In this document: positions 15,955 to 21,946 of the stretch, one piece after another
Position numbering within the stretch: the first letter of the stretch is position 1
Layout of the letters: every line of letters starts with the position of its first letter
Assembly: GCA_036374135.1 (NCBI GenBank)
Contig: DASUUK010000102.1
Coordinates: forward strand, 1-40,959
Origin: Euzebyales bacterium
Lineage (GTDB): Bacteria > Actinomycetota > Nitriliruptoria > Euzebyales > JAHELV01
Direction of reading: 5' to 3'
Length of the DNA: 40,959 nucleotides
Position numbers and translations under genes: made by a program
Notes under the pieces: generated by a model
What the model was told of the DNA's origin: nothing
What the model saw: only the letters and a program-made list of their open reading frames with translations
The model's database searches: none

Positions 15955-17394
15955 CTACTGCGGCAGGTTGTCGTGACGGTAGCCGGGCCGCACCGAGCGC
16001 TCCAGGGCGCGCAGTGCCGCCGCGACGCGGGCGCGGCTGGCGGCAGGGTCGATGACCTCGTCGACGCTCAGGCGCTCAGCGGGCACGTGGGGGTCCATCG
16101 CCTCGGCGCGGTAATGACCGATCAGCTCCGGCCGGCGATCGGGCTCCGCCGCGAGCTCGCGGCGGTAGATGACGTCGATCGCGCCCTCGGCACCCATCAC
16201 GGCGATCTCGGCGCCGGGCCAGCTGAAGACGGCGTCGGCACCGAGCGACTTGGAGTTCATGACGATGTAGGCGCCACCGAACGCCTTGCGCAGGATGACG
16301 GTCACCCGCGGCACCGTCGCCTCCGCGAAGGCGTAGAGCAGCTTCGCACCCTTGCGGATGATGCCGCCCGCCTCCTGACCGGTGCCAGGCAGGAAGCCGG
16401 GCACGTCGACCAGCGTCACCAGCGGGATCCCGAACGCGTCGCACAACCGCACGAACCGCGCCGCCTTCTCGCTGGCCTCGATGTCCAGACATCCCGCGAG
16501 CACCAGCGGCTGGTTGGCGACGACGCCGACCGACCGGCCGTCGACGCGCGCGAAGCCGACCACCACGTTCTCGGCGAACTGCTCGTGAAGCTCGAAGAAC
16601 GAGCCGCCGTCCACGATCCCGCGGATGACGCGGCGGACGTCATAGGGCTCGCGGTGGTCGTCGGGGACCTGCGGCATCGGCTCGGGTTCGACCGGTACCT
16701 CGTGCGGCGGCAGGTCGTGGCACGAGCTGGGCAGGTACCCGAGCACGCGCCGCGTCAGGTCCAGTGCGTGCGCCGCGTCGTCGGCAACGAGGTGCGCGAC
16801 GCCCGAGGTCCGCGCGTGCAGTTCGGCGCCGCCCAGATCCGACAGCGACACGTCCTCGAACGTCACCGCGCGCACCACCCGCGGACCCGTGACGAACATG
16901 TGCGCCTTGTCGCGCTGCATGATGACCACGTCGGTCAGCGCGGGCGAGTACACCGCTCCGCCTGCGCACGGACCCATCACCACGCTGATCTGCGGCACCC
17001 GCCCACTGAGCGCGACGTTGCGGTAGAAGATCGAGCCGTAGCCGTCGAGCGCGGCGACGCCCTCCTGGATGCGCGCGCCGCCGGAGTCCAGGAGACCGAT
17101 CACCGGGCAGCGCACCCGCGCCGCACGATCCAGCCCCGCGGCGATCTTGGCGGCATGGACCTCTCCGAGCGAGCCGCCCAGTGCGGTCGGGTCCTGTGCG
17201 AACACCTCGACTGGCCGCCCGTGGATGCGCGCCGACCCCGTCACGACGCCGTCGCCGTCGGGCCGTTTGCGCTCCATGCCGAACGCCGTGACGCGGTGCC
17301 GCGCCTGGCTGCCCACCTCGGCGAAGCTGTCGAGGTCGACGAGCGCGGTGATGCGCGCCAACCGGTCGGCGCGCGGGTCGATGGTCTCGGTCAC
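15955..17394 (-). CDS. accD: Acyl-CoA carboxylase beta (carboxyltransferase) subunit, AccD6-like
   Basis: The 479-residue protein holds both carboxyltransferase halves. The N half has GVVTGSARIHGRPVEVFAQD, LLDSGGARIQEGVAALDGYG and MGPCAGGAVYSPALTD. The C half has VVGFARVDGRSVGVVANQP, LVTLVDVPGFLPGTGQEAGG, AYIVMNSKSLGADAVFSWPG and EIAVMGAEGAIDVIYRRE. These oxyanion-hole glycines carry carboxyl transfer from biotin to acetyl- or propionyl-CoA, making malonyl-CoA for the fatty-acid synthase. Its length and its place next to fabF match mycobacterial accD6. The biotin carboxylase subunit is not in this window. Confidence 0.93.
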   Translation of the reverse strand: MTETIDPRADRLARITALVDLDSFAEVGSQARHRVTAFGMERKRPDGDGVVTGSARIHGRPVEVFAQDPTALGGSLGEVHAAKIAAGLDRAARVRCPVIGLLDSGGARIQEGVAALDGYGSIFYRNVALSGRVPQISVVMGPCAGGAVYSPALTDVVIMQRDKAHMFVTGPRVVRAVTFEDVSLSDLGGAELHARTSGVAHLVADDAAHALDLTRRVLGYLPSSCHDLPPHEVPVEPEPMPQVPDDHREPYDVRRVIRGIVDGGSFFELHEQFAENVVVGFARVDGRSVGVVANQPLVLAGCLDIEASEKAARFVRLCDAFGIPLVTLVDVPGFLPGTGQEAGGIIRKGAKLLYAFAEATVPRVTVILRKAFGGAYIVMNSKSLGADAVFSWPGAEIAVMGAEGAIDVIYRRELAAEPDRRPELIGHYRAEAMDPHVPAERLSVDEVIDPAASRARVAAALRALERSVRPGYRHDNLPQ

Positions 17395-17406: not shown

Positions 17407-18630
17407 CTACGCGCCGGCGAGCACGACGACACCGTTCTGGCCGCCGAACCCGAACGAGTTCGACATGACGACGTCGACTGCGACCTCGCGAGGCTCGCCG
17501 TGGACGATGTCGAGGTCGACCTCGGGATCCTGCTTCTGGAGGTTCGCCGTCGGTGGGATCAGGCCGTGCTCCAGTGTCAGTGCGCCGAAGGCCGCCTCGA
17601 TCGCCCCGGCCGCGCCCAGCGAGTGGCCGGTGACGCCCTTGGTCGACGTGACCGGCGGCGCGTCGTCGCCGAACATCCGGCGGATGACCCTCGACTCCGC
17701 GGCGTCGTTGAGCGGTGTCGACGTGCCGTGGGCGTTGATGTGCCCGACCTCGGCGGCGGTGACCCCCGCATCGCGCAGCGCCGAGGAGATCGCGAGGCCG
17801 ACGCCGACCCCCTCGGGGTCGGGCGCGGTGATGTGGTGCGCGTCAGCGCTGGCCCCGTAGCCGAGCAGCCGGGCACGCACGGTCGCGCCGCGAGCCGCGG
17901 CGTCCTCGCCGCGTTCGAGGACCAGCACGCCCGACGCCTCCGCAGCGACGAAGCCGTCCCGGTCGGCGTCGAACGGCCGCGACGCGGCGGCCGGGTCGTC
18001 GACACGTGCCGACAGCGCATGCATCTGCCCGAACGCCGCGATCGACAATGGCGACAGCGCCGCCTCGGTGCCGCCGGTGATGACGACGTCACACGCGCGG
18101 GTGCGCAGCAGGTCGCGCGCGACGCCGATGGCGGTGGCGCCCGACGTGCACGCCGTGGCGGTCACCAGGTTCGGCCCGTTGGCGCCGAACTCGATCGCGA
18201 TGTGGCCGGCGACCATGTTCGGGATCATCATCGGGATCAGCAGGGGCGACACCCGTGTGGGACCTTTGTCGAGCATGATCTCGTGCTGCTGCTCCCAGAC
18301 CGGCGAGCCGCCCATGCCACAGCCCATGACGCAGCCGACGCGGGCGCCGTCCCATGTCTCGGGATCCAGCCCGGAGTCCTCGATCGCCTCACGGGCGGCG
18401 ACCAGGCCGAACTGGACGAAGCGGTCGAGCCGGCGTGCGGCCTTGCGGCCCAGCAGCGCGTTGCCGTCGAAGTCAGCGACCCGGCAGCTGATGTCGATCG
18501 GGATGCCGTGCAGGTTGGGGTCCTTGGCGGCGGCGGACCGCCCGCTGAGGACCCCGGCCCACGCCGTGTCGACACCGATCCCCGCCGGGGTGACCAGGCC
18601 GAGACCGGTGATCGCGATGTCGGTCGTCAT
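17407..18630 (-). CDS. fabF: 3-oxoacyl-ACP synthase II (KAS II)
   Basis: The 407-residue condensing enzyme extends acyl-ACP with malonyl-ACP. The catalytic triad is Cys161 (TATACTSGATAIG), His301 (HINAHGTSTPLND) and His336 (STKGVTGHSLGAAG), and the C-terminal glycine loop SNSFGFGGQNG is present. The ATG at 18630 gives the standard start MTTDIAITGLGLVTPAGIG; the open frame further upstream to 18774 overlaps the ACP gene and is non-coding. It lies 58 bases downstream of acpP and 12 bases upstream of accD, and resembles mycobacterial KasA. Confidence 0.95.
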   Translation of the reverse strand: MTTDIAITGLGLVTPAGIGVDTAWAGVLSGRSAAAKDPNLHGIPIDISCRVADFDGNALLGRKAARRLDRFVQFGLVAAREAIEDSGLDPETWDGARVGCVMGCGMGGSPVWEQQHEIMLDKGPTRVSPLLIPMMIPNMVAGHIAIEFGANGPNLVTATACTSGATAIGVARDLLRTRACDVVITGGTEAALSPLSIAAFGQMHALSARVDDPAAASRPFDADRDGFVAAEASGVLVLERGEDAAARGATVRARLLGYGASADAHHITAPDPEGVGVGLAISSALRDAGVTAAEVGHINAHGTSTPLNDAAESRVIRRMFGDDAPPVTSTKGVTGHSLGAAGAIEAAFGALTLEHGLIPPTANLQKQDPEVDLDIVHGEPREVAVDVVMSNSFGFGGQNGVVVLAGA

Positions 18631-18688
18631 GTCACGTGCCCTACTGCCGCGATGCGGGCCGCGGTCCGGCCCACGGTGGTCAACGTCG

Positions 18689-19016: not shown

Positions 19017-20012
19017 TCATGCCCCACGTCGGTCGAGATCCGGCCACGTCAACAGCGTCGAGCCCCAGGTGAACCCGGAGCCGAACGCCGTCACCAGGAT
19101 CCGCTCGCCGGGACGCAGCGTTGCGTCGGCCAGCGCGAGGGGTATCGAGGCGGCTGAGGTATTCCCGTAGCGGTCGACATTACTCACCCGGCGGTCGGTG
19201 GGGATGCCCAGCCGGTCGGCGACCGCCATGAGGATGCGCAGGTTGGCCTGGTGTCCGACGAACCGGTCGACGTCGTCGGTGGTCAACCCGGCCGTGTCGA
19301 GCAGCGCCAGACACGACTCGGTCATCCGTCGCACGGCGTGACGGTAGACGTCGCGGCCATCCATGGTGAGGAATCGGCCGGCTGCGTCCGGATCCGGACC
19401 GGGCATCCGGGTCCCCCCGGCCGGGACGACGAGGTGGTCCACGCCGCTGCCGTCACTGCCCAGGTCGAACGGCCCGATGGCGCCGGGCTCGTCGGGTTCC
19501 CCCGCGCGCATGGTCACCGCGCCGGCCCCGTCACCGAACAGGACCGCGGTCGACCGGTCGTCCTGGTTGGTGATGCGGGCCATCAGGTCCGCGCCGATCA
19601 GCAGCACGCGCTCGCTGACTCCCGCGGCGATCAGACCGGCCGCCGACGCCAGCCCGTACACGAAGCCCGCGCAGGCGGCCTGCACATCAAATGCGGGGAC
19701 CGAGTCCCACCCGAGACGGGCCGCCACCAGCGGCGCGACACCCGGCATCGGATGATCCGGTGTGGTGGTCGCGACGACGATCGCTGACGGGGAATCGTCC
19801 GCGGCGTTCTTGAGGACGGCCTGGGCGGCCTCGAACGCCAGATCGCTGGTCGCGACGGCCGGATCGGCGATGCGTCGTTGCGCGATGCCGGTCCGCGTGC
19901 GGATCCACTCGTCGCTGGTGTCGAGCCGCGCCGCGAGATCGTCGTTGGTGACGATGCGGTCGGGAACGGCGACACCGAGGCCGTCGAGCACTGCCGCGGT
20001 ACGTGGGATCAT
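19017..20012 (-). CDS. fabH: 3-oxoacyl-ACP synthase III (KAS III)
   Basis: The 331-residue enzyme starts fatty-acid synthesis by condensing an acyl-CoA primer with malonyl-ACP. It has the catalytic triad Cys114 (VQAACAGFVYGL), His254 (FVGHQANLRI) and Asn284 (YGNTSAASIPLAL), and the N-terminal DEWIRTRTGIAQRRIA signature. Primer choice (acetyl, branched or long-chain) cannot be read from the sequence. It lies 41 bases after the biotinyl-like gene and begins the recognisable synthase genes of the operon. No fabD or fabG is in this cluster. Confidence 0.95.
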   Translation of the reverse strand: MIPRTAAVLDGLGVAVPDRIVTNDDLAARLDTSDEWIRTRTGIAQRRIADPAVATSDLAFEAAQAVLKNAADDSPSAIVVATTTPDHPMPGVAPLVAARLGWDSVPAFDVQAACAGFVYGLASAAGLIAAGVSERVLLIGADLMARITNQDDRSTAVLFGDGAGAVTMRAGEPDEPGAIGPFDLGSDGSGVDHLVVPAGGTRMPGPDPDAAGRFLTMDGRDVYRHAVRRMTESCLALLDTAGLTTDDVDRFVGHQANLRILMAVADRLGIPTDRRVSNVDRYGNTSAASIPLALADATLRPGERILVTAFGSGFTWGSTLLTWPDLDRRGA

Positions 20013-20053: not shown

Positions 20054-20359
20054 TCACGCCGGCGACACGTCGAGCCAGGCCAGTGCCTGGCCCTGCCTGA
20101 CCAGTTGACGCGGGCGGACGAGCAGGTTCTTGAGCAGGGCGTCGACCGGTGAGCGCACCTCGTCCGCACGACCACGACCGCCCGTGATGTGACCGAGGAT
20201 CTGACCGGCCCGCACGCGGCCGGAGATGGCCGCCGGCTCGAACCTGCCGGTCGTCGGGGCGACGACGAGTCCCATGGTGTCGGCGCACGTGCCCTCGAGC
20301 GACGCTGGCTCGCTGGCGTTGGCATGGCCGGCAGCGGCCGGGCGGACGGGTCTGGGCAT
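20054..20359 (-). CDS. Biotinyl/lipoyl-like domain protein without acceptor lysine
   Basis: This 101-residue protein reads as a biotinyl-type barrel: MGLVVAPTTGRFEPAAISGR, VRAGQILGHI, VRSPVDALLKNLLVRPRQLV, RQGQALAWLD. In a carrier domain the EAMKM hairpin would come right after GQILGHI. Here the sequence is TGGRGRADEV, with no lysine, so it should not be biotinylated or lipoylated. It has a strong GGAGG site before the ATG at 20359 and heads the fatty-acid operon. It may be a decayed or repurposed carrier that acts as a scaffold or regulator of the acyl-CoA carboxylase; this is inference. Confidence 0.65.
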   Translation of the reverse strand: MPRPVRPAAAGHANASEPASLEGTCADTMGLVVAPTTGRFEPAAISGRVRAGQILGHITGGRGRADEVRSPVDALLKNLLVRPRQLVRQGQALAWLDVSPA

Positions 20360-20398: not shown

Positions 20399-20420
20399 TT
20401 GACATTGACGTCAATGTCAA
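20399..20420. promoter_or_regulatory. 22-bp perfect palindrome, operator of the fatty-acid operon
   Basis: The half-site TTGACATTGAC is followed directly by its exact complement, giving 22 bases of perfect dyad symmetry. It lies 40 bases before the ATG of the first operon gene (20359) and contains a TTGACA -35-like hexamer in each direction, so a bound dimer would control transcription directly. Regulators of MerR or TetR type use operators of this symmetry; the protein is not encoded here. Bases 20421-20560 hold no gene. Confidence 0.65.
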
Positions 20421-20560: not shown

Positions 20561-21946
20561 ATGATCGACACGGACGTCCGGGACACGTTGGTCAACCGGA
20601 TGGCCACGCACCGGATCGACCTCGAGCGCCTCGTGACCATCCCGAGCGTCAGCGCGCCAGGCTTCGACCACGCCGAGCTGCGACGGTGCGCGGAGGCGGT
20701 CCGCGACCTCCTCACAGCGCGGGGTTGCAGCAACGCGCGGCTGTTGGAGGTCGAGGGCAGCCACCCGGCCGTGTACGCCGAGTGGCTGCACGCCGGACCG
20801 GACAAGCGCACCGTGCTGTGCTACGCGCACTACGACGTGCAGCCGCCCGGCGACTTGGAAGCGTGGACGACGCCGCCGTTCGAAGCGACCGAGCGCGACG
20901 GCCGTCTGTACGGCCGTGGTGCCGCCGACGACAAGGCGGGGATCATGGTGCACGTCGCCGCGATCGACGCCTGGTTGTCGACCCACGACCGGTTGCCGTG
21001 CAACGTCAAGGTCATCGTCGAGGGCGAGGAGGAGACGGGCAGCGAGCATCTGGACGCCCTGCTCGACGGCTACGGTGACCTGCTCCGCGCGGACGTCGTC
21101 ATCATCACCGACTCGGTGAACTGGAAGGTCGGCACGCCGGCGTTGACCCACTCGCTGCGGGGACTGACCGACTGCGTCGTCGAGGTGCGCGCGCTCGACC
21201 ACCCGCTGCATTCGGGCATGTACGGCGGACCCGTGCCAGATCCCGTCAGCGGCCTGGCGAAGCTGCTCGCCGGGCTCACCGACGACAGGGGCACGGTGGC
21301 TGTGCCAGGCTTCGCCGACGACGCGCCCGACGGGCCGGGATCGAGTTCGGTCGACGCGCTCGCGTTCGACCTCGACGAGTTCCGTCAGGAGGCCGGCCTG
21401 CTCGACGGCGTCGAGCTCATCGGCGCGGCCGGCCACCACGTGCTCGAGCAGCTGTGGTACCGGCCGGCCATCTCGGTGACCGGGCTCGACGCGACACCGG
21501 TCGCCATCGCATCGAACACGCTGGCGGCGACAGCGAGGGCGAAGGTCAGCGCACGGCTGGCGCCGGGACAGGACCCGGACCGCGCGCTCGACCTGTTGGT
21601 CGGCTGGCTGGAGGACCACGTGCCGTGGGGGCTGCAGGTCACCGTCACGCGTGGCGCGGCCGCCGCGGGCTACTACGGCGACCCGGATGGACCGACCATG
21701 AAGGTGGCCCGGCGTGCTCTCGCGGCCGCGTACGGCAACGACGCGGTCCTCGTCGGCCTGGGCGGCAGCATCCCTCTGATCGAACCGCTCACGAAGGCCT
21801 TCGGTGACATCCCCGCGCTGCTGACCGGTGTGGAGGATCCGGACACCCGCGCCCACGGCATCGACGAGTCGCTGCACCTCGACGACTGGGAGTGCGCGTG
21901 CCTCGCCGAGGCCTACCTGTTCGCCGAGCTCGCGGACGGGACCTAG
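20561..21946 (+). CDS. M20-family metallopeptidase (dipeptidase type)
   Basis: The 461-residue zinc peptidase has the M20 motif set: metal ligand His in VLCYAHYDVQPPGDLEAWTT, bridging Asp in RLYGRGAADDKAGIMVH, catalytic Glu-Glu in VIVEGEEETGSEHLD, then the dimerisation domain (about 190-370) and the late His in DTRAHGIDESLHLDDW. The ALDHPLHSGMYGGPVPDP segment marks the CNDP/ArgE-like dipeptidase subgroup, which hydrolyses dipeptides or acylated amino acids. It has no signal peptide, so it is cytoplasmic. GAGGAG precedes the ATG. A small coiled-coil protein follows after 8 bases. Confidence 0.93.
   Translation: MIDTDVRDTLVNRMATHRIDLERLVTIPSVSAPGFDHAELRRCAEAVRDLLTARGCSNARLLEVEGSHPAVYAEWLHAGPDKRTVLCYAHYDVQPPGDLEAWTTPPFEATERDGRLYGRGAADDKAGIMVHVAAIDAWLSTHDRLPCNVKVIVEGEEETGSEHLDALLDGYGDLLRADVVIITDSVNWKVGTPALTHSLRGLTDCVVEVRALDHPLHSGMYGGPVPDPVSGLAKLLAGLTDDRGTVAVPGFADDAPDGPGSSSVDALAFDLDEFRQEAGLLDGVELIGAAGHHVLEQLWYRPAISVTGLDATPVAIASNTLAATARAKVSARLAPGQDPDRALDLLVGWLEDHVPWGLQVTVTRGAAAAGYYGDPDGPTMKVARRALAAAYGNDAVLVGLGGSIPLIEPLTKAFGDIPALLTGVEDPDTRAHGIDESLHLDDWECACLAEAYLFAELADGT

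Follow-up and report, generated by a model that had tools for sequence, protein, structure and literature searches.

A lysine-less biotinyl-domain protein at the head of a fatty-acid operon in Nitriliruptoria: a candidate accessory subunit of one acyl-CoA carboxylase

Introduction

Fatty-acid synthesis is committed at the acetyl-CoA carboxylase reaction. It is still an open question how bacterial carboxylases keep their loose subunits together and under control, and the locus described here poses it in a specific form: what does a protein that resembles a biotin carrier, and lacks the lysine that would accept biotin, do at the head of a fatty-acid operon? The window, that is, the whole stretch of DNA analysed, comprises 40,959 nucleotides of a Euzebyales genome (class Nitriliruptoria, phylum Actinomycetota; contig DASUUK010000102.1, assembly GCA_036374135.1). 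A first-pass annotation had described the protein, here called P0001, as a biotinyl-type protein without the biotin lysine, encoded first in an operon that also encodes a carboxyltransferase, and both parts of this description hold for the window.

Results

The operon and its first gene

The operon is a minus-strand run that consists, in order, of the P0001 gene, fabH, an acyl carrier protein gene, fabF, a carboxyltransferase gene, and fabI. The relevant features are as follows.

20561-21946, M20 peptidase, divergent neighbour of the P0001 gene
20399..20420, no strand assigned, perfect 22-base palindrome TTGACATTGACGTCAATGTCAA, 39 bases before the P0001 start codon, between the P0001 gene and the M20 peptidase gene
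20054..20359, minus strand, lysine-less biotinyl-domain protein P0001, 101 aa, gene 1 of the operon; N-terminus (about residues 1-20) of low confidence, biotinyl barrel about residues 28-97
19017..20012, minus strand, fabH, beta-ketoacyl-ACP synthase III, directly 3' of the P0001 gene
18689..18940, minus strand, acyl carrier protein gene
17407..18633, minus strand, fabF, beta-ketoacyl-ACP synthase II; start at about 18633 read from the FabF profile match, the open reading frame being open to 18774
15955..17394, minus strand, CT-A, the PccB/AccD-type carboxyltransferase of the fab operon and proposed partner of P0001
15150..15929, minus strand, fabI, enoyl-ACP reductase

The arrangement varies among relatives: no FabF was found between the acyl carrier protein and FabI in three fab operons (L158 of G018, L147 of G007, and L148 of G011), and most other relatives differ from these.

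The reading frame of P0001 occupies exactly 20359-20054 on the minus strand, from ATG through 101 codons to a stop, and a GGAGG ribosome-binding site lies 5 bases 5' of the ATG. Six comparisons within the genus give pN/pS values of 0.19-0.29, at a dS of about 0.7 to 1.1 that is near saturation; the gene is therefore under purifying selection. A chance open reading frame is ruled out by these ratios together with the ribosome-binding site and a conserved family of homologues.

A predicted biotinyl fold

The AlphaFold2 model of P0001 (pLDDT 86.1) is confident for the barrel and of low confidence at the N-terminus. Its best matches in the PDB are biotin carboxyl carrier proteins, for example the BCCP of P. 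horikoshii (2evb; Z 12.2 (VIA), rmsd 2.1, 72 residues), so that the structure prediction proposed with the first-pass annotation returned a biotinyl fold and not some other one. A profile built from 30 family members finds the biotinyl domain of the transcarboxylase 1.3S subunit (1dcz, E 5.6e-13), and aligns with the biotinyl domain of the fused BC-BCCP encoded in the same genome at an hhalign probability of 95% (E 3.6e-8). The lipoyl domain of that genome is matched more weakly (88%, E 3e-6), which speaks, though not decisively, against lipoyl rather than biotinyl kinship, with one sequence compared on each side. Searched as a single sequence, P0001 yields only a weak match to Biotin_lipoyl_2 among Pfam models at E up to 10 (20 bits, cut-off 29.8), and at E 0.01 none of the NCBIfam models is hit. 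Since model, PDB matches to BCCPs, and family-profile matches coincide, the barrel is beyond chance; profile and model make P0001 a genuine relative of the biotinyl domains, with a predicted biotinyl fold.

The acceptor lysine is missing

The true biotin carriers of the window genome are encoded elsewhere, among them a BC-BCCP near a second carboxyltransferase and an AccE match, and read EAMKM, EAMKM, and ESMKM at the biotin hairpin. A short stand-alone BCCP-like open frame of 130 aa on another contig (C113, L006) carries ESMKM and is apparently a true carrier. The EAMKM stretch of these carriers aligns with TGGRGRADEV in P0001, which places R62 or G63, depending on the aligner, at the acceptor position; neither is a lysine. 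Across an alignment of 53 family members (31 from the class and 22 from other classes) the acceptor column holds lysine in none: the residues are 30 G, 7 S, 6 R, 4 Y, 2 N, 2 D, 1 A, and 1 gap. The possibility of a displaced acceptor lysine, raised with the first-pass annotation, is excluded by the same alignment, in which 2 of the 53 members (L051 and L081) have a lysine no more than 5 columns away from the acceptor position, and by the fact that the sole lysine of P0001, K77, is not conserved. With neither an acceptor lysine nor an AMKM motif, P0001 is therefore not a carrier in the known way.

The replacement of EAMKM by a Gly/Arg-rich loop was correctly noted for the window protein and extends to its nearer relatives, which keep GGxGRAD; it does not extend to the wider family, and for this reason the function common to the family probably does not reside in the hairpin sequence. 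Conservation lies elsewhere. P35, G52, V87, and G90 are invariant in a 30-row alignment, G38, R39, V49, L80, and Q85 are nearly so, and a tryptophan close to the C-terminus is nearly invariant in a 13-row alignment across classes.

Two carboxyltransferases and AccE

The class has two PccB-type carboxyltransferases, the window type CT-A and a second type, CT-B, that is 52-61% identical to it. In a 50-row tree of selected carboxyltransferases the CT-A sequences group in one clade with support 99, whose members among the rows used all come from the class; within this selection, CT-A orthologues outside the class are ruled out. The small subunit AccE goes with CT-B: CT-B is no more than 3.4 kb away from 16 of the 20 AccE matches in the class, and none of the 20 is near CT-A. 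The window genome itself contains such a second cluster (L210 5565-10280, contig C24), in which CT-B is followed by an AccE match and by a BC-BCCP gene whose product carries EAMKM. Six genomes (G017, G018, G020, G028, G034, and G054) carry CT-A but yield no CT-B match at E 1e-80, two of them being less than 75% complete; because such genomes exist, CT-A is likely a working enzyme. We also considered whether the P0001 family replaces AccE across the phylum. This was rejected, as AccE was found, weakly, in 1 of 60 out-of-class genomes, and the 30 genomes with a listed family match show no contrast to the 30 without.

Co-occurrence of the gene with CT-A

Among 66 genomes of the class, 29 have both a P0001-type gene and CT-A, one has the gene only (G060, where the contig ends 1.1 kb past fabH), two have CT-A only (G016 and G031), and 34 have neither (Fisher p 3e-15, a value that ignores descent). 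Presence of the gene was established by the class search in 29 genomes and by the phylum scan in G038, which the class search had missed; the phylum scan drew only part of the 66 genomes, such that a few divergent copies elsewhere may be missed. Sixteen rows of the class search (E 3.5e-6 to 8.6e-4) were discounted, their long open frames (243-953 aa) being attributed to HlyD-like proteins or to other proteins of biotinyl or lipoyl type; one of these rows (L056) was inspected. Many genomes are incomplete, and nine of the 66 lack a FabH match at E 1e-60 and are thus uninformative about the operon; the remaining 57 divide into 29 with both, one with the gene only, two with CT-A only, and 25 with neither. 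In other words, the gene is retained in 29 of 31 genomes with CT-A, and 25 of the 27 genomes that have FabH and no gene also lack CT-A. The physical linkage is equally close: CT-A lies within 8 kb of 28 of the 31 gene copies in the class, and fabH adjoins 29 of the 31.

The loci without the gene are informative in their own right. Twenty fabH regions that lack it were fetched. Sixteen contain neither gene nor carboxyltransferase among the fab genes covered (one, L160, extends little beyond fabH), two contain the carboxyltransferase alone (G016 and G031), and the other two are those of G018 and G023; in this reading two weak profile matches were disregarded, of which one falls in a very long frame (L151) and the other is antisense inside fabH (L156). 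Where fab loci could be read through, fabH-acp-fabF-fabI is kept and the first gene and CT-A are both gone, despite occupying separate positions in the operon. The fabH operons of G018 and G023 contain neither, and the gene is found elsewhere, immediately 5' of CT-A. G017 has two copies of the operon on different contigs (C96, L212, and C218, L213), each with a lysine-less gene, fabH, CT-A, and a palindrome of its own.

Mapped on a FabH tree of 57 rows, the gene requires 12 changes and CT-A likewise 12; on an RpoB tree of 33 genomes the numbers are 8 and 7. The two states differ in only 3 of the 57 FabH genomes. When only supported branches are counted, each tree retains 4 independent contrasts for the gene, of which about 3 agree, none oppose, and 1 is neutral (sign test p 0.25); with only 4 contrasts the sign test is unable to reach 0.05, and the test of co-variation is underpowered. 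Separate evidence for a coupling of the gene and CT-A comes from the cases of relocation and duplication.

A putative operator

The perfect palindrome TTGACATTGACGTCAATGTCAA upstream of the P0001 gene occurs once in the window genome at up to 3 mismatches. At the same tolerance it is found in 27 of the 66 genomes of the class, once in each except for G017, which has two, one per operon copy; the reversed palindrome, used as a control, has no site in the 66 genomes at up to 3 mismatches. The site is almost always located 5' of the fab operon or of the relocated pair of P0001-type gene and CT-A, the latter being the case in G018 and G023. Among genomes without the P0001-type gene it precedes fabH in G016, G009, G013, G026, and G029, and five genomes of a single genus, likewise without the gene, have it some 1.1-1.4 kb upstream of fabH. 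In G050 it is located elsewhere. The palindrome at 20399-20420 is a probable operator, seemingly that of a regulon with a single operon.

Homologues outside the class

A scan of 396 genomes shows that short lysine-less homologues are present in other classes of the phylum, the 122 matching genomes including true carriers and E2 proteins as well. The copies examined are a selected set, mainly of best-scoring short open reading frames, taken as 12 copies and 10 further genomes; in this set all 22 fetched copies lie immediately 5' of fabH on the same strand, so that the shared operon position is found here too. The model of one out-of-class homologue is confident and all-beta (pLDDT 91.3). No carboxyltransferase (PF01039) was found near the out-of-class copies, all matches lying on other contigs except in G139, whose nearest match is about 67 kb away; 9 of 30 out-of-class genomes searched have a single PF01039 match.

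Since these copies adjoin fabH without a nearby carboxyltransferase, the link to CT-A is not ancestral, and the link to fabH is the older of the two. The partner of the lysine-less homologue outside the class may be another protein or another carboxyltransferase. Either a carboxylase has always been the partner, whichever carboxyltransferase serves, or the partner has changed. The first-pass annotation had proposed a decoy or scaffold subunit of the acyl-CoA carboxylase. This proposal is partly supported. The tie to a carboxylase agrees, within the class, with the co-occurrence with CT-A (29 genomes with both, 3 discordant, 34 with neither) and with the joint relocation; a carboxyltransferase in the operon is not general, and outside the class none was found in the operons led by the homologue.

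Discussion

We consider it somewhat more probable than otherwise that P0001 serves the CT-A-based acyl-CoA carboxylase as a dedicated accessory subunit that carries no biotin. The observations behind this reading are the predicted biotinyl fold, the missing lysine, purifying selection, and retention and relocation together with CT-A behind the same palindrome. By virtue of its carrier-like shape P0001 would bind CT-A, or the interface of CT-A with a BC-BCCP encoded elsewhere, and would stabilise or tune the complex. It would then do for CT-A what AccE does for CT-B, and, by analogy, what BADC does for the enzyme of plant plastids. We think a role in assembly or activation likelier than one in inhibition, because genomes with CT-A almost always retain the gene, even where CT-A is the sole enzyme of its kind found. 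Against a strict requirement, G016 and G031 keep CT-A without the gene.

An inhibitory role nevertheless deserves consideration. P0001 could compete with the biotinylated BCCP domain for docking on CT-A or on the biotin carboxylase, and less malonyl-CoA would be made when the fab operon is strongly expressed. In favour of such a decoy, P0001 has a predicted carrier fold whose acceptor lysine is gone, P0001 and CT-A share operon and palindrome, the co-occurrence speaks for this reading as it does for that of an accessory subunit, and plant BADC was, according to PMC11926652, initially interpreted as an inhibitor. A brake should, however, be easily lost, yet the gene is kept in 29 of 31 CT-A genomes, including those with CT-A as the sole such enzyme found, and PMC11926652 itself favours a glue role for BADC; we regard a brake as unlikely. 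A partner other than the carboxylase is suggested by gene order: as fabH adjoins 29 of 31 copies in the class and all 22 fetched copies outside it, the latter without a nearby carboxyltransferase, P0001 might act on FabH or the acyl carrier protein, for example in acyl-ACP sensing or in coupling malonyl supply to initiation, the link to CT-A being secondary. The distribution within the class makes this rather improbable, given that 25 of 27 genomes with FabH and without the gene also lack CT-A, and that in G018 and G023 the gene lies apart from fabH and together with CT-A. The remaining alternative, a relic of a former AccB whose biotin role has passed to the fused BC-BCCP and which retains little function, could account for the homology to biotinyl domains, the lack of the lysine in every member, and the true carriers elsewhere in the genome. 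It is hard to reconcile with a stable gene position and conserved residues in several classes, with purifying selection and a ribosome-binding site, or with joint relocation with CT-A, and we hold it to be very improbable.

Beyond the class, the accessory-subunit reading can be extended, at somewhat less than even likelihood, to an old family. Several classes of Actinomycetota would share lysine-less biotinyl proteins that serve as non-catalytic subunits of the acyl-CoA carboxylase supplying fatty-acid synthesis, a counterpart of BADC that arose separately and a stand-in for the epsilon subunit, which became specific for CT-A in the class of the window. If so, two carboxyltransferases of one cell would each have a helper of its own, the two helpers being unrelated in sequence. 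With its own carboxyltransferase, a single operator-like site, and natural pairs of presence and absence, such a bacterial case would also offer a small system in which to test glue against brake.

Comparison with known systems

Two known systems bear on P0001. The heteromeric acetyl-CoA carboxylase of plant plastids contains BADC, a non-catalytic homologue of BCCP without the biotin motif that is discussed as glue or inhibitor in PMC11926652. For Streptomyces, PMC13118682 describes epsilon subunits that pair with particular beta subunits, with activity depending on epsilon and the beta/epsilon pairs being modular.

P0001 is like plant BADC in that it is BCCP-like without a biotinylation motif and is tied to the carboxylase of fatty-acid synthesis, the tie of P0001 consisting in genetic co-variation with CT-A. 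Unlike BADC, it is bacterial and consists of one small domain, and its proposed partner is a PccB-type carboxyltransferase with a fused BC-BCCP, whereas the partners of BADC are a separate BCCP and CT-alpha/beta. Our literature search, in which subscription papers were thinly covered, returned lysine-less BCCP paralogues in plants only and none in a bacterial fab operon. With AccE/PccE (PF13822) P0001 shares the property of being a small, probably non-catalytic protein genetically linked to one carboxyltransferase paralogue; it differs in that it has no PF13822 match in Pfam at E up to 10 and has a predicted biotinyl fold, and in that the AccE of the class goes with CT-B. The predicted fold and the sequence profile are those of the biotinyl domain (PF00364; 2evb, 1dcz), but in contrast to BCCP there is no acceptor lysine in an E-x-M-K-M hairpin and no AMKM. 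A carboxylase role for P0001 would show that carrier domains can become structural subunits more than once. Because it lacks both the lysine of the carriers and PF13822, P0001 is filed neither under the biotin carriers nor under AccE; by analogy, it resembles BADC in kind.
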